From positions 1 to 24,783 of the IMG/VR virus record IMGVR_UViG_3300023176_004546: a stretch of 24,783 nt of DNA. One strand, written 5' to 3'. Source of the stretch: a virus. Below, piece after piece: positions 3,280-21,921 of the stretch. The number at the start of each line of letters is the position of its first letter. The stretch's first letter is position 1. The translations under genes and the position numbers were made by a program. The notes under the pieces were generated by a model. It saw only the letters and a list, made by a program, of their open reading frames with translations. It was not told where the DNA came from and did no database searches.

Positions 3280-3492
3280 ATGGGGTTGCATATGTTTGCA
3301 GAATCAGTTGGTACTATTGATGATATTCAAGGTAGACTTAGAAAACAATATTGGTTAATTGATCATAGTCATGGAAATTATTATGTTGGTAAAATATTTC
3401 GTTATGATGATGAGGTAAAACCAGAAGTTCGGCAATTGAAAGTAGGTGACATTATTGATATAGATGATCGTTATTCTCTTCAAAGAGCCTAA
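3280..3492 (+). CDS. Small protein of unknown function (about 66-70 aa)
   Basis: Two starts are possible. ATG 3280 has no Shine-Dalgarno sequence in front of it. ATG 3292 has GGGG at 3282-3285 about 6 nt upstream and gives a 66-aa protein beginning MFAESVGT; I favour 3292 slightly but report the longer frame. The product has aromatic and beta-prone segments (QYWLIDHSHGNYYVGKIF) followed by VGDIIDIDDRYSL, which looks like a small beta-barrel or SH3-like fold; this is only an impression. No catalytic motif is visible. It lies between two other small genes in the same direction, 1 nt after the preceding stop, so it is probably cotranscribed. Confidence 0.62.
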   Translation: MGLHMFAESVGTIDDIQGRLRKQYWLIDHSHGNYYVGKIFRYDDEVKPEVRQLKVGDIIDIDDRYSLQRA

Positions 3493-3506
3493 GGAGTTTA
3501 TTTGTT

Positions 3507-3881
3507 ATGAAAAAGTTTTCAAAAAAAGAAATTGAAAAACTTCAACGTGAACATAAGCAGTATAATAAAGAGATGCGGCAAATTCATTGTCACAGTCTGC
3601 AAAAGACTTTTGATGAATTTGTCGCTTATCGGTTTGGTAAATCTCTTCCCATCAGAAAAAAAGTATCCACACTTTCTCAAGAAGTTCCTATCTATCAGCG
3701 TGAGACTGAAAAAGTTTCCAGTATGAATTCTTTTGGTAAGATTGGTCTTGTAACAAAAGTGAAACAATCTAATAAATATACAGGAGACTTAATTCAAGGT
3801 ATTGGTGTAATGCACAAGTCAAATGCAGTGCCTGTTATAAATAGTAATGTAGCAAAGGACTTGGCATCAATGCGTAGATAG
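3507..3881 (+). CDS. Conserved phage protein of unknown function, MHKSNAVPV motif
   Basis: ATG 3507 follows AAGGAG at 3491-3496 by 10 nt, a good ribosome binding site. The 124-aa product begins with a very basic helical region (MKKFSKKEIEKLQREHKQYN), has a central segment PIYQRETEKVSSMNS and ends YTGDLIQGIGVMHKSNAVPV plus DLASMRR. I recall this tail (YTG, then MHKSNAVPV, then MRR) in many small hypothetical proteins of marine podo- and myoviruses, without a known function; the recall should be checked by search. No membrane segment. The basic N-terminus could bind nucleic acid. A TATAAATA octamer at 3836-3843 lies inside its 3' end and might serve the next gene. Confidence 0.75.
   Translation: MKKFSKKEIEKLQREHKQYNKEMRQIHCHSLQKTFDEFVAYRFGKSLPIRKKVSTLSQEVPIYQRETEKVSSMNSFGKIGLVTKVKQSNKYTGDLIQGIGVMHKSNAVPVINSNVAKDLASMRR
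3836..3843 (+). promoter_or_regulatory. Possible intragenic T4-type late promoter (TATAAATA)
   Basis: An exact TATAAATA octamer, the T4 late-promoter -10 element, lies inside the upstream coding region 50 bp before the membrane-protein start at 3893. In DNA this AT-rich a few exact matches are expected by chance, so the position before a possible lysis gene is the only extra support. Confidence 0.3.
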
Positions 3882-3892
3882 AAAGGAGCGTC

Positions 3893-4171
3893 ATGGATAC
3901 CGAAATGATCAAACAGTTAGTTGATGTCGGTGGGACATTAGCTGCACTAGTGGCATGTTTTTGGTATATTAAATTCTTGACGGAAAGACATGAAGTTGAA
4001 AGAAAACTATGGATGGACAAGGATACCGAATCAGATAAGGCTCTTAGGGAATTGCTTACTGATTCAAATAGAATTCTTGGAGACATGAAAAATGTTTTCA
4101 ATGAACATACTCTGCTGTTGCAACAATTGTTGGACAGAAAAATTGAAAGAAGTAGTAATAGACAAGGTTAA
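3893..4171 (+). CDS. One-pass membrane protein with charged helical tail, possible holin-like (BhlA/UviB-type layout)
   Basis: ATG 3893 follows AAAGGAG (3882-3888) by 4 nt. The 92-aa product has a short N-terminus, one hydrophobic segment (about residues 9-29, with GGTLAALVACFWYIKFL), then a long charged, coiled-coil-prone tail (ERHEVERKLWMDKDTES onward). This layout of one N-terminal membrane helix plus a charged cytoplasmic helix is that of BhlA/UviB-type holin-like proteins and some phage membrane-associated coiled-coil proteins. No catalytic motif is visible. A possible late promoter lies 50 bp upstream. There is no endolysin gene next to it, so a lysis role is unproven; it could instead modify the host membrane. 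Membrane topology is a sound inference; the holin label is weak. Confidence 0.7.
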   Translation: MDTEMIKQLVDVGGTLAALVACFWYIKFLTERHEVERKLWMDKDTESDKALRELLTDSNRILGDMKNVFNEHTLLLQQLLDRKIERSSNRQG

Positions 4172-4173
4172 TA

Positions 4174-4779
4174 ATGAATACATCAAAGATTATTGTTGCA
4201 CTTGATAATTATTCACCATATATGGCAAGAGAAATCATTGCCAAATATAGTCAACAAGTGTATGGTTTTAAAATGAATCATACACTTTATCCTTACATTG
4301 GGAAAGAATATAATAATGTTTTTTGTGATTATAAGTTATACGATATTCCAAGTACTGTTTGTAATGTTATTGAACACTTGATTGATAGTGGTGCTGAAAT
4401 GGTGACTGTTAATATGAATAATAATCTTGCAGTGTTTGAAGCCATTGAACAGTACTCTGATAAGATAAAACTTCTTGGTGTTACTGCATTGACAAGTTGG
4501 GATCATAATGATCCTAATTCTATTCATCGTCAAGAGATTGGTAATATGTATGATCGCACAACATGGATTATGGAGAAGTACAATTTTTGGGGTATGATTT
4601 GTTCTCCACGAGATTTAAAATTATTAAAAAATGTTACAAGACTAAAAAAGATTTGTCCTGGAATTCGTAATGCGGATGACGGTAAACAAGATCAGGTAAG
4701 AACTGCAACACCAGAAGAAGCATTTGAAAATGGTGCAGACTATCTGGTGATGGGTAGAAGTTTCTTTAAATCTATATAA
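4174..4779 (+). CDS. pyrF: Orotidine-5'-phosphate decarboxylase
   Basis: A 201-aa protein that decarboxylates OMP to UMP, the last step of de novo pyrimidine synthesis. The family signatures are in order: ALDN (D11), GFKMN (K33), the catalytic DYKLYDIPSTV (D52, K54, D57 of the DxKxxD motif), VTALTS (103-108), the CSPRDL segment (143-148), PGIR (162-165), DQVRTATPEEA (173-183) and VMGRSF (192-197). All catalytic positions are therefore kept. The usual VHA after the sixth strand is replaced by VNMNNN. It is shorter than E. coli PyrF (245 aa) but covers the full barrel. DxKxxD enzymes of the hexulose-6-phosphate synthase branch were considered, but PGIR and the closing Gly-Arg favour OMP decarboxylase. 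It lies 2 nt after the membrane-protein gene. It probably raises UMP supply for phage DNA synthesis. Confidence 0.9.
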   Translation: MNTSKIIVALDNYSPYMAREIIAKYSQQVYGFKMNHTLYPYIGKEYNNVFCDYKLYDIPSTVCNVIEHLIDSGAEMVTVNMNNNLAVFEAIEQYSDKIKLLGVTALTSWDHNDPNSIHRQEIGNMYDRTTWIMEKYNFWGMICSPRDLKLLKNVTRLKKICPGIRNADDGKQDQVRTATPEEAFENGADYLVMGRSFFKSI

Positions 4780-6692: not shown

Positions 6693-6700
6693 TATAAATA
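6693..6700 (+). promoter_or_regulatory. T4-type late promoter (TATAAATA) for the gp5 block
   Basis: Exact TATAAATA in the 34-bp gap before the hub gene. T4-like late genes use a gp55-type sigma that reads only this -10 element. Its intergenic place directly before the first baseplate gene, with GGAG and ATG 26-33 bp downstream, makes it credible. Confidence 0.65.
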
Positions 6701-6725: not shown

Positions 6726-7982
6726 ATGGACAACTATTCTTATTTTATGGGTCGGGATGGATTCGTCTGGTGGATTGGTGTTGTTGAAGACCGTGATGAT
6801 CCTGATTTGATTGGACGTGTTAGGGTACGATGTCTTGGTTATCACACTGATGATTTTCAAGACATTGCCACCGATGATCTCCCATGGGCTCATGTAATCC
6901 TTCCTCCTACGGCTCCTTACGGAGCAATGCACAATTTGACACCTGGAATGTGGGTTATGGGTTTCTGGAGAGATCCACAATCTATGCAAGAACCTGTTGT
7001 CATTGGTGCACTTCCAGGTTATCCTTCATCTGGTCCAAATCCCGCAAAAGGATTTTCTGATCCAAACGATCCAGGAGCACCTGATCCGCAGATCGGAAAA
7101 TACAAAATCACTCCTGACTATGGTCCGTATCCAACAAGAGTTGGAGAACAAGACACATCTCGCCTTGCAAGAGGAAGAACAGAACCTCATCCAGAAATAG
7201 CAGAAAGAGATGGTCTAGCAACATCTTCTGTTCCTACAGCAAATGGAACACCAATCATAAAAGTTGGTGTCGCTCCTGCGGAAAAAGATTTTACAGAAAA
7301 ATATTTTGATGCTGTAAATGAATCAACAAGCACAACTTGGAACGAACCCAAAGCATCTGATTTGTCTCTTAAAGGACAAGATTTAGATAACAAATATTAT
7401 ACAGAATCTGCAGAAAATAAAGGTGCTGTTGGCGGCAAGAATGCTGAAACTCTAGAAGACAGAACACCTACAATCAAAAGAAGACAAACTGAATATCCAT
7501 ATAACAGAGTTTATGAATCAGAATCAGGACATATTATTGAAATAGATGATACGCCTTTTGCGGAAAGAATGTATCGTAAACATCGGACAGGAACATTCCA
7601 AGAATGGGATGCTGATGGAAATTCAGTAACAAGAATAGTTTCAAACAATTATACGATTGTGGCTGGAACAGATTTCGTGAATGTTAAAGGAGATGTTAAT
7701 CTGACCATTGATTCAAATTGTAAGACATATATTAAAGGTGATTGGGATATTCAGGTTGACGGAAATAAAACTGAAACTGTTAAAGGAAATGTTATTGAAA
7801 CATATTCTACTGAAGACAAATATACACACACAACAACCGTCAATGGAACAAGAAACGAAACGGTGACCAAAGCAGTTACCGAAACTTATGTATCAACACA
7901 AACAACAGCGGCTGGCGGAAAAATTAAAATAACATCCGGTCCAGAAATTGATATGGATGCAGGAGTTATTAATCTAAACTAA
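6726..7982 (+). CDS. gp5: Baseplate hub/spike protein gp5-like (OB fold plus beta-helix, no lysozyme)
   Basis: I choose ATG 6726, which has GGAG at 6716-6719 and 6-nt spacing, over upstream TTG 6702; this gives 418 aa. Residues 1 to ~100 are the gp5/VgrG-type OB fold: FVWWIGVVEDRDDPDLIGRV, then DLPWAHVILP, GMWVMGFW and EPVVIGALPG. A low-complexity Pro/Gly linker follows (about 100-260). From about 265 comes SGHIIEIDDTP, then a triple-stranded beta-helix needle of short repeats (TIVAGTDFVNVKGDVNL, DIQVDGNKTETVKGNV) ending IDMDAGVINLN. T4 gp5 (575 aa) has a lysozyme domain between the two; none is visible here. The protein forms the trimeric needle at the tail tip, capped by the PAAR protein encoded just downstream. 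Confidence 0.88.
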   Translation: MDNYSYFMGRDGFVWWIGVVEDRDDPDLIGRVRVRCLGYHTDDFQDIATDDLPWAHVILPPTAPYGAMHNLTPGMWVMGFWRDPQSMQEPVVIGALPGYPSSGPNPAKGFSDPNDPGAPDPQIGKYKITPDYGPYPTRVGEQDTSRLARGRTEPHPEIAERDGLATSSVPTANGTPIIKVGVAPAEKDFTEKYFDAVNESTSTTWNEPKASDLSLKGQDLDNKYYTESAENKGAVGGKNAETLEDRTPTIKRRQTEYPYNRVYESESGHIIEIDDTPFAERMYRKHRTGTFQEWDADGNSVTRIVSNNYTIVAGTDFVNVKGDVNLTIDSNCKTYIKGDWDIQVDGNKTETVKGNVIETYSTEDKYTHTTTVNGTRNETVTKAVTETYVSTQTTAAGGKIKITSGPEIDMDAGVINLN

Positions 7983-7992
7983 GGAAAAAAAT

Positions 7993-8088
7993 ATGTGTAA
8001 TAATCCAAAATGTAAATGTAAAAATTGTAAATGTGAAGATGAATGTACATGTGATGAAGTAAATCCTTGTGGATTGGAGTGCAAATAA
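7993..8088 (+). CDS. Cysteine-rich microprotein, metallothionein-like (31 aa)
   Basis: A short gene between hub and spike tip. ATG 7993 follows AAGGA (7981-7985) by 7 nt, and the TAA at 8086-8088 shares one base with the next ATG. The product has nine cysteines in 31 residues, at positions 2, 7, 9, 12, 14, 18, 20, 26 and 30. They form CxC pairs (7/9, 12/14, 18/20), one CxxC (9/12) and CxxxC (14/18, 26/30), with Lys and Asp/Glu between them and no aromatic residue. That composition is that of metallothionein-like metal-cluster proteins. The next gene's ribosome binding site lies within its 3' end, so they are translated together. Possible roles: metal delivery to the PAAR tip, host metal or redox buffering, or a small zinc protein. 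It is real by start signal and tight packing; function is inferred. Confidence 0.68.
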   Translation: MCNNPKCKCKNCKCEDECTCDEVNPCGLECK

Positions 8089-8435
8089 TGCCACCAGTAG
8101 CAAGAAAGGCGGTAACTGAACCAGTATTTACAGTACATCCGGCTGTATTGGATGCAGATCCAGAAGATGGTTGTGTATGTGATGTACTTCCTATTGTAGT
8201 AGGAACATTAGCAGGTTCCGGAGATGTATTCGCAAATAGTATTGGTGTTGTAAGAGCAGGAGACCCTGTATTGCCTCATACATTTCCTTGTGCTTGTGCA
8301 TTACATCCACCTCCTCTCGCAACCTTTAGTGGAACAGTTTTTGCAAATGGGAGAAACATTGGAAGACAAGGTGACTTATATGCTTGTGGTGCAGTTATAT
8401 TGGCTGGATCGGGTAACGTATTTGCCGGAGGTTAG
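8088..8435 (+). CDS. PAAR-type spike tip protein (T4 gp5.4-like)
   Basis: I choose ATG 8088, with GGAG at 8076-8079, over an upstream in-frame start; this gives 115 aa. It shows the PAAR repeats: GSGDVFANSIGVVRAGD (43-59), GTVFANGRNIGRQGD (82-96) and a final GSGNVFAGG. H17, H64, H73 and Cys at 29, 31, 68, 70 and 100 offer metal ligands; PAAR tips hold an Fe or Zn ion near the apex. The cysteines (GCVCD, PCACALH) exceed what the usual three-His/one-Cys site needs. The protein sharpens the gp5 needle that pierces the outer membrane. It follows the Cys-rich microprotein with a 1-nt overlap, and the next gene starts immediately after its stop. Confidence 0.87.
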   Translation: MPPVARKAVTEPVFTVHPAVLDADPEDGCVCDVLPIVVGTLAGSGDVFANSIGVVRAGDPVLPHTFPCACALHPPPLATFSGTVFANGRNIGRQGDLYACGAVILAGSGNVFAGG

Positions 8436-8690
8436 ATGGCAACAAAAAGAAGAATAAGAAAAAGAGATAACAGAACACAATATATAGTTGTATTTCAAGA
8501 CCTTTATAATGTAAATCGTTATGGTGGATTGATTCGTGCAGTATCATATGAAAATGCAGAATTTATGGCTAGTTGTATTTGTGGAATTGTTATTGGAGAA
8601 ATAGATCCGGAGACTGGTGAAGAATTTTATTATGAAGACAAGGTAGAAGAATTGAATGAACATACTTTGCGAGATACATGGATGTATTGA
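8436..8690 (+). CDS. Small basic protein of unknown function (84 aa)
   Basis: ATG 8436 directly follows the PAAR stop, and GGAGG lies at 8428-8432 inside that gene's end, so the two are coupled. The 84-aa product starts with a strongly basic stretch (MATKRRIRKRDNRTQYIVVF), then a compact region with two Cys (SCICG, 47-51) and an acidic end (DPETGEEFYYEDKVEELNEH). No known family recognised. Its place between the spike tip and gp25 suggests a tail-assembly or minor baseplate role, but it could also be unrelated. A late promoter follows it immediately. Confidence 0.7.
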   Translation: MATKRRIRKRDNRTQYIVVFQDLYNVNRYGGLIRAVSYENAEFMASCICGIVIGEIDPETGEEFYYEDKVEELNEHTLRDTWMY

Positions 8691-8698
8691 TATAAATA
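8691..8698 (+). promoter_or_regulatory. T4-type late promoter (TATAAATA) for gp25-gp6-gp7
   Basis: Exact TATAAATA starting one base after the preceding stop and 19 bp before ATG 8717, in the only gap of this stretch. AGGAG at 8704-8708 follows. Placement before the wedge genes supports a real late promoter. Confidence 0.65.
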
Positions 8699-15837: not shown

Positions 15838-18800
15838 ATGGAAAATACCAATTTAAATGTTAATCCATATTATGATGATTTTTCTGAAGATAGTAATTTT
15901 CACCGGGTGTTGTTTAGACCAGGTTATGCTGTACAAGCGAGAGAATTAACACAACTACAAACTATTCTTCAAAATCAAATTGAAAGACATGGTAGATTTG
16001 TTTTTAAAGAAGGAACAGTTGTAATTCCAGGCGCTCTTGGTTTTACAACTGATTATTATGCTGTAAAAATTCAATCAACATTTTCTAATAATGATATATC
16101 AGATTATATAAGTGAATATGTTGGTACAAAAATTACAGGAACAACATCTGGAGTAGTGGCTGATGTTATATCAGTAGAACCTGCCACTACAACAGATGAA
16201 ATTACTCTTTTTGTAAAATACAAAGAATCTGGAACTGATAATGTTACCTCTAGATTTGTTGATGGTGAAAATATTTCTTCCAATGCATCTGTTGGTGGAT
16301 TTGGAATAGGAATTGATTCTGCTACACTTGTAACAACTAATGCTACTGCAACAGGATCATCAGCAAATATTGAAGAAGGTGTATATTTTATTAGAGGACA
16401 TTTTGTAAAGGTTTTAAAACAAAGAATTATTCTTGACAAATATACAAACACACCATCATACCGTGTTGGTCTTCTTATTACTGAAACATTAGAAACTCCT
16501 GAAGAAGATACAACTTTATTAGATAATGCACAAGGATCTTCCAATTTAAATGCAAAAGGTGCACACCGTCTTAAAATCTCATTGACATTGGCAAAGTTAG
16601 GATTGTCAGATGAAAATGATGAAAACTTTGTAGAACTTTTGCGATTAAAAAATGGTGTTGTACAGGAGAAATCAAGAACAACAGAATTTTCTATTTTAGA
16701 AGAAACTCTTGCAAGAAGAACCTATGAACAAAATGGTGATTTTATTGTTAAACCATTTGATGTACAGATAAGAGAATGTTTGAATGATGGATTTAATAAT
16801 GGTGTATATCAAGAGGGAGATATTACTGAAAGTGGAAATGTTGCTTCTGAAGACTTTTTGACATTTCAAGTATCACCAGGTAAGGCTTATGTTCGTGGAT
16901 ATGAAGTAGAATCCATTGCTCCTAAATTTATTGATGTAAGAAAACCAAGATCAACTGATAGTTATAATGGAGCAATCACTCCTGTTGAAGTTGGAAATTA
17001 TGTTGTTGTAAATAATGTGTACAGTGCACCAGAAATATCTCCTTATATTAGTGGTAGTATTGATGAGCCATATAGAGTTATAGAATTGTATGATACACAA
17101 AATACAACTCCAGGTGCATCTAATGGAACAAAAATAGGTTATGCAAGATCAAGAGCATTTGAAAACATAATTCCGTCTGGCACAAATGTTTTTGATTCTG
17201 ATGCCACATTTAAGTTATATCTTTTTGATATACGAATGTTTACTAGACTTACTTTGAATGGAACACCTGCCAATGGTATTGTTCAAGGTGCAAAAATAAC
17301 TGGTATAACATCCAAAGCAACAGGATTTGTTACAAGTGATTCATCAGGAACAAATGTTGTTCTTACTACAGTAACTGGTAATTTTCTTGTTGGCGAATCT
17401 ATCAAATCAACTTCAGCCACTACAGCTGATGAAATTTTAGATGATGGTGCTACTGATTTAACTATTCAATCTATTAATATTTCAGATTTTAGTTCTGTAA
17501 AACAAGTTTATATGCCAAATGGTAATACAATTGATTTTACAGCAGATGTTGTTCTTCAAAATTCTTTTAATCTTACTGGATTTGTAACCAATTCTGGAAC
17601 AACTATTAATGGTTTTCAAACTATATTTTCTACTGAATTAAGAACAGGAGATGTAGTTTCTTTTCCATCTGGAGCTTCTGGTGCTCTTGAAGATAGAGTT
17701 GTCACTGTAGTTAGTGATACAGAATTGACTATTCCAACCGTTCTCTCCAATACTGTTACATCAGTAACTGCTACAAGAAAGAGGTCTCAATTAGTAGATC
17801 AAAATAAAAATCTTCTATTAAGAAAACTTCTTAAAAAATCTATCAAAACTCTTAAAACAGAAAACAATAGTGGAGTTTCTGATAGTACAGTTACCATCAG
17901 AAGATCCTTTGTAGGACAAACAAACAGTACAGCTGGTGAATTAGCATTTACTGTAGGATCAAATGAAACATTTGATGCAGTAGATAATATCAACTATAGT
18001 TTGGTAATATTGTCACCTGGAACCGGATCAGGTGTTGCTGGTCAGATTGTGAATTTGAATGATGTATCTGTTCAAAATAATTCTAATAGTTTGACAATTA
18101 CTTCTGCTGCTATTTTTGGTAACGGTGCAAGTGTTAGATTAATAGCGACTGTTACAAGAACCATAGTAGAAGAAAAGACTAAAAACAGAAATCGTATGAC
18201 TATGGTTTTGGTAGATAATGATGGAATTACACATGCGGCTGAATATGGAACTTCTGCACACCATAAAGAAATAAGTTTAGGTTATGCTGATGTTTTAAAA
18301 GTACATGCGATTTATGATTCAGAAGATGCTGGTACAGATCCAGTTTTGCCTCAATGGACGTTGGCAAGTAGTACAAGTGTTTTTATCAAAGGAGAAATAA
18401 TTACAGGACAAACATCAGGTGCTAAAGGTAGAATTATTAATCCTTCTGGTAATATAACTTTTATTCCTCTTAATACTATTTCATTCTCTTCAGGCGAAAC
18501 AATTAAAGGTGGAGAAAGTCAAGTAACAGCTGTTCTAGATACATTTACTGCTGGATCAAAAGATATTACAAACAGATATGTTCTTGATACAGGACAAAGA
18601 GATAATTATTACGATATTGGAAGAATTGTTAGAAAATCGGATTCTGTAGAACCAATAGGCAGATTGTTGGTTGTTTTTGATTATTTTTCACATATTGGTT
18701 CTGGAGATTTTTTCACAGTTGATTCTTATTCTACTATTGACTATAAAGACATTCCAACATACACTGCTACAAGAGTAGATCCAGAAGTGAGAGAACCCAC

Positions 18801-21800
18801 AGGTGAATATGATTTAAGGGATACAGTTGATTTTAGACCTAGAGTAGCTGATGCTACATTCTCTTCTCCAACAGTACAAGTTCAAAATCAAGATGCTCAC
18901 AAAGTAACGGGAATGTCATTTAATTTTCAAGATAGAAAATTTTTTGGAGATGGTGTTTCTGTAATAAACATTCCAAAAGACAATTCAAATTTTGGATATG
19001 ATTTTGAATATTATCTAGGTAGAATTGATTCATTCACAATCACACCTACTGGTGAGTTTAAAGTTATTCAAGGAACTCCATCTGAAAATCCTGCTCCTCC
19101 AAAAATGGCAGAAGGTGGATTGAAACTTGCAGAAAACAATGTGGCTCCTTTCATGGTGAATGTGAAAGATGCAATCACAAATAAAGAAGTCAAAAAGAAA
19201 TATACTGCTGCTGATTTAGGTAAACTTGAATCAAGAATATCAAATATTGAATATTATACTGCTTTAAATTTACTAGAAAAAGATGCTCAATCATTTGAAA
19301 TAATAGATGAAAATGGTTTGAATAGATTCAAATCAGGATTTTTGGTTGATAACTTTACCGGACATTCTGTTGGTGATGTTTTACATCCAGATTATAATGT
19401 TTCAATTGATATGGAAAATAGAGAATTACGACCTAAATTTTATATGAAAGGTATTTCTCTTTTAGAAGAAAATACAACTGATGCAGAAAGGTCAAATGAT
19501 TTTTATAGAAAAACAGGTGATCTAATTACACTTCCTTATGAAGATGTAGTCACTGTTCAACAGCCTTTTGCTACAAGAGTTGAAAATCTAAATCCAGTTT
19601 TGAATTTTTCTTGGAATGGAGTTTGTAAACTTTCACCTTCTGGTGATGAATGGTTTGAAGTGAATCTTCTACCAGATTTGATTGTCAATAGAGAAGGTAA
19701 TTTTGATACGGTTTTCGCTCAAAACAGAAATGCTATTGGAACTGTCTGGAATTCATGGCAGACCCAATGGAGTGGTCAAATACAAAGAACGAACAATACA
19801 CAATGGAGTGGAAGACAGCTTATACAAAGAACTGTCACAACAGAAACAGGTGTTAGTACCAGATCAGGAATTCAAACTTCTGTTGTTGCACAGATAGATG
19901 AGCAATCTTTGGGTGAAAGAGTTATTTCTCAGGCACTCATACCATTTATTCGTTCTAGAAATGTAACATTTAATGTTACAGGAATGAAACCAAGAACCAG
20001 AGTTTATCCTTTCTTTGATAGAACTAATATTGCTGCTCATGTTACACCAAGTGGCGGAAATGCTGGAGATGCATTGATCACTGGAGCATCTGGATCTTTG
20101 CAGGGTACATTCTTAATTCCGGATCCAAATGTAAGAGGTAATCCACAATTCAGAACAGGTGAAAGATTATTCAGACTTACATCTGATGCAAATAATGGAG
20201 AAACCAATGTAGAAACATTTGCTCAAGCCATATATTCTGCAACTGGTATTTTGAATACTGTTCAAGAAACAATCATTGCAACAAGAAATGCAAGAGTTGA
20301 AGTAAGAGATGTTTCTCAGACAACAAATAGCACCCGGCAGACTGTACAACAAAGAACAATTGCTTGGAGAGATCCAATTGCTCAATCTTTCACAGTAAAT
20401 ACCGATGGTGGTGAATACATCACAAAATTAGATGTATTCTTTTCACAAAAAGATGATGACATTCCGGTAACCTGTCAAATCAGAGAAATGGTAAATGGAT
20501 ATCCTGTTTTAAATGTTTTGCCATTTGGTTCAACAACATTAGAATCAAGTCAAGTATCTGTTTCTGAAGATGCATCTGCTGCTACTACATTTACTTTTGA
20601 TTCTCCTGTATATCTAAAAGAAGGTATTGAATATTGTATTGTATTACTGACCAATTCTGACAAATATTTGGTTTGGATTTCTAGAATGGGTGAACAAGAG
20701 GTAAGTGGTACAAGATTAGTTTCTGAACAGCCTTATCTTGGTGTACTTTTCAAATCACAAAACAATTCAACTTGGTCAGCGTATGATTTTGAAGATTTGA
20801 AATTTACACTTTACAGAGCATCATTTAATACATCAGCAACTGCTAATGTTGTATTTCATAATGATGACCTTCCTGTGAAAACACTAGATGAAAATCCAAT
20901 CAGAACTTTTGCGGGTAGCAATATTGTAAAGATTTATCATCAGAATCATCATATGTATCATACATCAAATAATGTACAAATTTCTGGTGTAACTTCTGAT
21001 GATGGTGTTAATTTAAATGGTATTCCATTGACTGAAATTAATGCTACTCATTCTTCTATAAGTAATATTGAAATAGATTCTTATACAATTACTGTGACAA
21101 CAAACGCAACCGCAAGTGGATTGAGTGGTGGATCTTCTGTTACTGCAACAGAAAATGCGTTAATGGATCAAGTACAAACTCTTTTTCCTGTAATTGAACA
21201 TCCTGAAACATCTATCTCATTGAAAATGGCCTCAACTTCTGGGACATCACCAGACGGCAATCAAGTGCCATTCTTAAAAGATGCTACTATTAATGCAAAA
21301 TCAATTACGATAAACGAAAATTATTATTTCACTAATCCAAGAATGATATGTTCAGAGTTGAATGAAACTAATGAATTGAGTGGTTCTAAATCATTGGATT
21401 TAATTTTTACAATGGAAACAACTGTTGATAATTTATCACCAATAATTGATACAGATAGAAAAACATTGGTTGCGGTCACAAATAGACTGAACAATGTTTT
21501 AACTGATGCTGACATTTATCCTTCAGAAGAATTCATAACAGCAAATGATCCTGAGGGTGATAGTCTTGAAACAGTATATGTCACTAAAAAAGTTCAACTA
21601 AAAACTCCTGCTTTGGCCATTAGAGTTATTCTATCGGCTGTGCAATTGGCATCTTCTAACATTGAGGTTATGTATAAAACACTCCGGTCTGATGATGCAA
21701 GTGACTTTGATGAAATTGGTTGGACATATTTTAATACAAATGGTGATCCTGATACTTTTGTCAATTCTTCTACTACAAATGATGATTTTCTAGAGAGGGA

Positions 21801-21921
21801 ATATACTGTAAATAACCTTGAAGAATTTATTGCATTTGCTATTAAAATAAGAATGAGAGGTACAAACAGTTGTGAAGTTCCAAGAATTAAAGACCTCAGA
21901 GCAATTGCGCTGGCAACATAA
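15838..21921 (+). CDS. Giant baseplate/tail structural protein, DUF4815-type
   Basis: A 2027-aa protein, the largest in the window, in the position of T4 genes 9/10. The N-terminus (NPYYDDFSEDSNFHRVLFRP, then YAVQARELTQLQTILQNQIE and FKEGTVVIPG, residues ~7-65) is the DUF4815 signature of marine T4-like phages. Residues ~96-105 and ~852-862 repeat the GxxITGxTSG motif found in gp7. Near 1340-1400 comes the segment GIQTSV, then SLGERVISQALIPFIRSRNV and YPFFD. Near 1511 comes DPIAQSF followed by a beta domain (DVFFSQKDDDIPVTCQIREM, SEQPYLGVLFKSQNNSTW). These blocks are familiar in cyanophage virion proteins. It probably forms the baseplate periphery and holds tail fibres. There is no strong Shine-Dalgarno sequence before ATG 15838. 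The exact T4 counterpart is uncertain. Confidence 0.8.
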   Translation: MENTNLNVNPYYDDFSEDSNFHRVLFRPGYAVQARELTQLQTILQNQIERHGRFVFKEGTVVIPGALGFTTDYYAVKIQSTFSNNDISDYISEYVGTKITGTTSGVVADVISVEPATTTDEITLFVKYKESGTDNVTSRFVDGENISSNASVGGFGIGIDSATLVTTNATATGSSANIEEGVYFIRGHFVKVLKQRIILDKYTNTPSYRVGLLITETLETPEEDTTLLDNAQGSSNLNAKGAHRLKISLTLAKLGLSDENDENFVELLRLKNGVVQEKSRTTEFSILEETLARRTYEQNGDFIVKPFDVQIRECLNDGFNNGVYQEGDITESGNVASEDFLTFQVSPGKAYVRGYEVESIAPKFIDVRKPRSTDSYNGAITPVEVGNYVVVNNVYSAPEISPYISGSIDEPYRVIELYDTQNTTPGASNGTKIGYARSRAFENIIPSGTNVFDSDATFKLYLFDIRMFTRLTLNGTPANGIVQGAKITGITSKATGFVTSDSSGTNVVLTTVTGNFLVGESIKSTSATTADEILDDGATDLTIQSINISDFSSVKQVYMPNGNTIDFTADVVLQNSFNLTGFVTNSGTTINGFQTIFSTELRTGDVVSFPSGASGALEDRVVTVVSDTELTIPTVLSNTVTSVTATRKRSQLVDQNKNLLLRKLLKKSIKTLKTENNSGVSDSTVTIRRSFVGQTNSTAGELAFTVGSNETFDAVDNINYSLVILSPGTGSGVAGQIVNLNDVSVQNNSNSLTITSAAIFGNGASVRLIATVTRTIVEEKTKNRNRMTMVLVDNDGITHAAEYGTSAHHKEISLGYADVLKVHAIYDSEDAGTDPVLPQWTLASSTSVFIKGEIITGQTSGAKGRIINPSGNITFIPLNTISFSSGETIKGGESQVTAVLDTFTAGSKDITNRYVLDTGQRDNYYDIGRIVRKSDSVEPIGRLLVVFDYFSHIGSGDFFTVDSYSTIDYKDIPTYTATRVDPEVREPTGEYDLRDTVDFRPRVADATFSSPTVQVQNQDAHKVTGMSFNFQDRKFFGDGVSVINIPKDNSNFGYDFEYYLGRIDSFTITPTGEFKVIQGTPSENPAPPKMAEGGLKLAENNVAPFMVNVKDAITNKEVKKKYTAADLGKLESRISNIEYYTALNLLEKDAQSFEIIDENGLNRFKSGFLVDNFTGHSVGDVLHPDYNVSIDMENRELRPKFYMKGISLLEENTTDAERSNDFYRKTGDLITLPYEDVVTVQQPFATRVENLNPVLNFSWNGVCKLSPSGDEWFEVNLLPDLIVNREGNFDTVFAQNRNAIGTVWNSWQTQWSGQIQRTNNTQWSGRQLIQRTVTTETGVSTRSGIQTSVVAQIDEQSLGERVISQALIPFIRSRNVTFNVTGMKPRTRVYPFFDRTNIAAHVTPSGGNAGDALITGASGSLQGTFLIPDPNVRGNPQFRTGERLFRLTSDANNGETNVETFAQAIYSATGILNTVQETIIATRNARVEVRDVSQTTNSTRQTVQQRTIAWRDPIAQSFTVNTDGGEYITKLDVFFSQKDDDIPVTCQIREMVNGYPVLNVLPFGSTTLESSQVSVSEDASAATTFTFDSPVYLKEGIEYCIVLLTNSDKYLVWISRMGEQEVSGTRLVSEQPYLGVLFKSQNNSTWSAYDFEDLKFTLYRASFNTSATANVVFHNDDLPVKTLDENPIRTFAGSNIVKIYHQNHHMYHTSNNVQISGVTSDDGVNLNGIPLTEINATHSSISNIEIDSYTITVTTNATASGLSGGSSVTATENALMDQVQTLFPVIEHPETSISLKMASTSGTSPDGNQVPFLKDATINAKSITINENYYFTNPRMICSELNETNELSGSKSLDLIFTMETTVDNLSPIIDTDRKTLVAVTNRLNNVLTDADIYPSEEFITANDPEGDSLETVYVTKKVQLKTPALAIRVILSAVQLASSNIEVMYKTLRSDDASDFDEIGWTYFNTNGDPDTFVNSSTTNDDFLEREYTVNNLEEFIAFAIKIRMRGTNSCEVPRIKDLRAIALAT

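Follow-up and report, generated by a model that had tools for sequence, protein, structure and literature searches.

The window, by which is meant the whole stretch of DNA analysed (24,783 nt of a contig of a marine T4-like phage from IMG/VR), carries a short open reading frame (ORF) rich in cysteine codons between the genes of a central spike and of a spike-tip protein. The features of this region, with the evidence behind them, are:

6693..6700, + strand: putative T4-type late promoter -10 motif TATAAATA, upstream of gp5 and 26 nt before the gp5 ATG
6726..7982, + strand: gp5-like central spike (OB and trimerisation needle); Pfam Gp5_OB PF06714, E 9.5e-12; PHROG 430, E 1.3e-74
7981..7985, + strand: Shine-Dalgarno sequence AAGGA of the microprotein gene, overlapping the gp5 stop codon, 7 nt before the ATG at 7993
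7993..8088, + strand, stop codon included: nine-Cys, 31-aa microprotein gene (MCNN family); ORF, conservation, pN/pS and family alignment
8086..8090, + strand: TAATG stop/start overlap, putative coupling of microprotein to PAAR; sequence
8088..8435, + strand: PAAR spike-tip protein, 115 aa, 5 Cys and 3 His; PF05488, E 1.8e-09; PHROG 281, E 3.4e-21
8436..8690, + strand: 84-aa protein, function not assigned, last gene of the unit; ORF list, PHROGs search and gene order in relatives
8691..8698, + strand: next putative late promoter motif, before gp25, starting the following unit

The product of the ORF, MCNNPKCKCKNCKCEDECTCDEVNPCGLECK, lacks histidine and has cysteines at positions 2, 7, 9, 12, 14, 18, 20, 26 and 30 (9/31, 29%) in CxC/CxxC/CxxxC spacing. 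Its start lies 10 nt beyond the gp5 stop codon (TAA, 7980-7982), while its own stop codon (TAA, 8086-8088) and the PAAR start codon at 8088 have one A in common, and a GGAG-type Shine-Dalgarno sequence of PAAR sits within the ORF. The initial annotation had described a 31-aa, nine-Cys ORF with a proper ribosome binding site, a stop base shared with the next start and an adjoining PAAR protein with five Cys and three His; every detail checked, coordinates, Cys count and spacing included, was found to be correct. Among the 173 small ATG ORFs of the window it is the richest in Cys (29% against 16% for the next best), the large proteins encoded in the window contain 0.3% Cys, and 40 Markov-shuffled windows gave one ORF with at least 25%.

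Late motifs were found at 6693 and 8691, and gp5, the microprotein, PAAR and the 84-aa gene therefore probably form one late transcription unit, transcribed from the promoter at 6693, with a motif count in the window little above chance (5 against 3.05 expected). Downstream of the 84-aa gene follow gp25 (PF04965) and then a gp6-like wedge protein. Pfam identified no lysozyme domain in the gp5 of the window, and phmmer showed 4jiw/4jiv and T4 gp5.4 (4ku0, 5iv5) to be the PDB relatives of its PAAR. A late promoter belonging to the family genes themselves was rejected, as TATAAATA occurs within 150 nt upstream in 0 of 117.

To study the conservation of the locus, relatives were fetched by gp5 alone or by PAAR alone, the microprotein not being used as query, and the clade to which the window belongs is here called clade A. 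Every clade-A locus covering the gp5-PAAR interval, whether fetched by gp5 or by PAAR, has kept the microprotein, and a chance origin of the ORF is untenable because it is kept in loci that were not selected on it. In locus L020 it has diverged to the shortened version MCNNKNCKCHDCKCENCKCLQ, which retains seven Cys and overlaps PAAR over a longer distance, the PAAR ATG still being within the ORF. A comparison of synonymous and nonsynonymous rates, proposed already with the first annotation, gave for the 31-aa form pN 0.014, pS 0.195 and pN/pS ~0.07 (six distinct nucleotide versions), and the Cys residues are kept under synonymous change, TGT and TGC being exchanged. RNA folding around the PAAR start was equal to that of shuffled sequences (z -0.01), and from this together with the purifying pattern of change it follows that selection acts on the protein. 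The ORF at 7993-8088 is a genuine, selected protein gene.

The window microprotein belongs to a large family of phage proteins with the pattern MCNNxxCxCxxCxCx(x)CxCx5CxC. When viral contigs in IMG/VR were scanned with a DNA pattern for MCNxxxCxCxxCxC, at least 120 stretches matched, and together the matches listed and the earlier loci gave at least 69 distinct complete proteins, of which 49 out of 69 have exactly nine Cys and 59 a third CxC. As the search pattern fixes M1, C2, N3 and four Cys, evidence was taken from the other positions only: in the family alignment, with consensus MCNNExCKCENCTCDPCECxxENPCGCx, C18 is invariant and C20 conserved in at least 90%, Cys codons swap between TGT and TGC, and six other family groups show pN/pS of 0.11-0.45. 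Members are 19-38 residues long with ~24-37% Cys in most cases, and the tail beyond the pattern contains 24% Cys, is rich in Asp, Glu and Pro and has F, Y and W each below 1%. A Shine-Dalgarno-like motif precedes 108 of the 120 family genes listed. When 257 Gb of cellular genomes were scanned for the more stringent MCNN pattern, four matches appeared, two of them (L165 and L167) with the same neighbouring genes as phage loci; the family is thus spread widely among phages, and cellular genomes all but lack it.

The window microprotein matched no family in PHROGs or Pfam, four members matched none in NCBIfam and a PDB sequence search with microproteins gave no match, with not every library tried with every member. 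A tBLASTn search with the 31-aa protein returned nothing from isolate phages, where the BLAST low-complexity filter can hide such a sequence. Two refuting conditions named in the initial annotation, a lack of homologues at this locus in related phages and Cys codons that are not conserved, were contradicted by the loci fetched with gp5 and PAAR. DNA searches for isolate phages with two members gave chance matches only, and five phage records scanned with the pattern contained no member, so that no isolate phage with the gene came out of these searches. The MCNN proteins thus make up a so far uncatalogued and probably new family, common in viral contigs yet absent from the libraries used; a length below the limits of gene callers, together with low-complexity masking, can lead to a widespread gene family being overlooked.

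The family was found in about nine gene neighbourhoods and is not specific to PAAR. The arrangements, apart from others whose neighbours are unassigned, are:

A: gp5-microprotein-PAAR
B: RNR-glutaredoxin-PHROG 527-58 aa-PAAR-microprotein
C: tail-fibre-like protein-microprotein-homologue of window ORF 23372
D: Hsp20-microprotein-small unassigned genes-M15-type endolysin-DNA polymerase
E: IscA-IscA-IscU-microprotein, spacing 48-56 nt
F: cytidyltransferase-microprotein-SNase-IscU
G: small terminase-microprotein
H: cell-wall hydrolase-microprotein-large terminase

Within 1.5 kb of the microprotein gene, 123 loci showed Hsp20 in 33 cases, PAAR in 29, IscU in 26, SNase in 17, IscA in 15 and glutaredoxin (Grx) in 11, counts that are not independent since many loci are close relatives and loci fetched by gp5, by PAAR and by the pattern are mixed. 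Representatives of the IscU, IscA and Grx neighbours were confirmed by Pfam. The variety of neighbourhoods suggests that the gene is a mobile accessory which inserts into late and metabolic operons, with some preference for genes concerned with metals, namely those of PAAR tips and of Fe-S assembly.

Composition, Cys spacing, Cys number and the coil prediction together point to a metallothionein-like protein, and the reading that we favour, with some reserve, is that the window protein may be a phage metal-thiolate microprotein of this kind, buffering or donating metal and made late together with PAAR. Like metallothioneins (mammalian beta-domain, fungal 7-Cys MT, bacterial SmtA/BmtA) it is tiny, with Cys making up about a quarter to a third of the residues, serial CxC and CxxC motifs and few or no aromatics; the 29% Cys of the window protein lies within the ~20-35% of such small proteins, and the Cys positions are under selection (pN/pS 0.07-0.45). 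The three-metal beta-domain of metallothionein has nine Cys, as has the window microprotein, and the fungal protein has seven, as have short members of the family. An AlphaFold2 model predicts coil only (mean pLDDT 75), which is compatible with a metallothionein, and a Foldseek search of this model against the PDB gave no match.

What distinguishes the microprotein is its invariant MCNN start, its being phage-encoded and the lack of a match to the Pfam models Metallothio_Pro and Metallothio. For PF02069, the bacterial family of SmtA and its relatives, no match was found in Pfam scans at a threshold as loose as E 10 or with the model itself on this genome, and for PF00131 none in six records carrying the family; these results count against the metallothionein-like reading, limited by the fact that HMMs perform poorly on queries this short and rich in Cys. 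In size and Cys content the microprotein resembles PF02069 proteins, the small Cys-rich metal binders of the bacterial world, but it lacks His, whereas His ligands are common in bacterial metallothioneins and SmtA folds around a zinc-finger-like site (PMC10612145). The neighbourhoods also speak both ways: the metal-linked PAAR, IscU, IscA and Grx (29, 26, 15 and 11 of the 123 partly related loci) fit a metal-binding protein, while Hsp20-lysis, terminase and tail-fibre genes as neighbours show no evident connection with metals, the IscU enrichment comes from a biased query and the arrangements are phylogenetically few. A literature search found no phage metallothioneins.

In the metallothionein-like reading the Cys thiolates would bind a small soft-metal cluster, nine Cys being suited to a cluster of three Zn/Cd or of Cu(I), and the microprotein would serve the infected cell, during the late phase, as a buffer or donor of metal and thiols. 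It would be translated just before the PAAR tip protein and coupled to it, and its synthesis would thus accompany that of a protein presumed to require a metal ion, so that the tip could be supplied with metal locally. A plausible specialised use would be the delivery of metal to PAAR in this phage and, in others, to the proteins of Fe-S assembly. A wider and tentative extension, to which we give little weight, is that marine phages may have a metallothionein class of their own, a mobile micro-metallochaperone that in some lineages loads the spike tip with metal and in others serves phage-borne Fe-S assembly; if so, the metallation of phage tails would be tied to how the infected cell manages its metals. 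Should the microprotein bind metal, it would offer a concrete molecule for testing how phages supply metal to their spike tips, and for tests of how phages manage host Zn, Cu and Fe, including the debated idea of iron in tails.

PAAR tips bind zinc via His and Cys (PMC10715212), and the initial annotation had suggested a metal chaperone or a metal-cluster partner for the spike tip. A real gene with a metallothionein-like product that always accompanies two PAAR types was indeed found, but as a general function the proposal is not supported, most members being located away from PAAR. A dedicated chaperone or structural partner, delivering Zn or Fe to the tip or sharing a metal cluster with it, is the strongest of the other explanations, though still an unlikely one. 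The microprotein is present in 7/7 PAAR-sampled clade-A loci with upstream sequence, where its translation appears coupled to that of PAAR, and in 9/9 loci of an unrelated PAAR type (type B), 154-165 nt downstream of PAAR. The accompaniment is not mutual: most members have no PAAR within 1.5 kb, in 19 of the 37 longer records that contain a member or are related to the family (these are fragments) no PAAR occurs, and no microprotein was found beside the PAARs of the T4-like phages L017 and L033-L042, nor any MCNN member beside the other phage PAARs examined. Nor can the Cys-richness of PAAR be the general cause of the association, since the type-B PAARs have 1-3 Cys. The locus comes close to the T4 gp5.4 and T6SS PAAR tips in that the adjoining gene is a PAAR with T4 gp5.4 among its PDB relatives; the microprotein itself is not a PAAR.

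The close gp5 relatives L006-L010 and L018-L022, beside whose PAARs no microprotein was found, have, in place of the five-Cys PAAR that follows gp5, another PAAR with a single Cys that lies upstream of gp5, and in relatives without the microprotein and the downstream PAAR a homologue of the 84-aa protein directly follows gp5. The microprotein and the five-Cys PAAR may hence have come in together as a cassette, in favour of a role at the tip. A joint loss of microprotein and PAAR in these loci was ruled out by the different PAAR upstream of gp5. Compared with the order in the window, these loci show a swapping of tip proteins at the spike locus.

Fe-S genes of the nifU type are known in marine viruses (PMC8940887), and no description of the microprotein alongside viral Fe-S genes was found in the literature searched. 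Among IscU-sampled loci 19/80 had a member against 0/80 of gp32-control loci with equal bases (Fisher p 1e-6), an enrichment biased upward, as the IscU query was taken from a microprotein-bearing locus and several loci are near relatives; the association in the sampled loci is suggestive. A helper of Fe-S biogenesis, acting as iron or sulfur carrier or as thiol partner of phage IscU, IscA or glutaredoxin with the PAAR site incidental, would account for arrangements E and F and for the microprotein lying within ~1.5 kb of IscU in 10/10 longer contigs with IscU. The order glutaredoxin-PHROG 527-PAAR-IscA, with PAAR between glutaredoxin and IscA and the microprotein absent, at 3482-4621 of the 278-kb contig L033, also fits such a helper. 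The link is carried by two arrangements only, no IscU was found in clade-A contigs including those of 26-30 kb (fragments), and serial CxC is closer to metallothioneins than to known Fe-S carriers; the microprotein shares a neighbourhood with the marine phage Fe-S genes (nifU/iscU, HesB/IscA) but is neither an enzyme nor a scaffold of that set. We regard this function as improbable for the window protein.

Slightly less probable again is a thiol or redox buffer, or a Cys store for the infected cell, in which metal binding would be incidental; the stress-linked neighbours glutaredoxin and Hsp20 and the Cys content of ~24-37% in most members agree with it, while the exact spacing CxCxxCxC and the Cys number argue for a defined coordination geometry and not for bulk thiols. 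A Cys-rich leader peptide regulating the next gene by attenuation or by coupling through Cys-tRNA supply, as could be imagined from the TAATG overlap and the PAAR Shine-Dalgarno sequence inside the ORF, is very improbable in view of the purifying selection at protein level with free third positions, of an RNA fold no better than shuffles, for which an attenuator was rejected, of the many unrelated genes that members precede, often with a Shine-Dalgarno sequence of their own and a gap, and of the arrangement B members lying downstream of PAAR.

When analysing the remainder of the window, a gene resembling orotidine 5'-phosphate decarboxylase was found at 4174-4779 (PF00215, E 1.7e-24) in this T4-like phage contig, possibly an auxiliary gene of pyrimidine synthesis, and an aspartyl/asparaginyl beta-hydroxylase-like protein (PF05118) at 1193-2320, relatives of which precede the microprotein by ~3.5 kb in several loci of the Hsp20 type. 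Positions 19-927 encode the C-terminal part of a tail fibre, including an intramolecular chaperone domain (Peptidase_S74), and the largest gene of the baseplate/fibre region, at 15838-21921, encodes a 2027-aa protein with DUF4815 stretches. In the loci L080, L061, L111 and L117 the microprotein is followed by genes starting with MKTFK/MKTFR...E, which may resemble the capsid-targeting start of T4 internal proteins.
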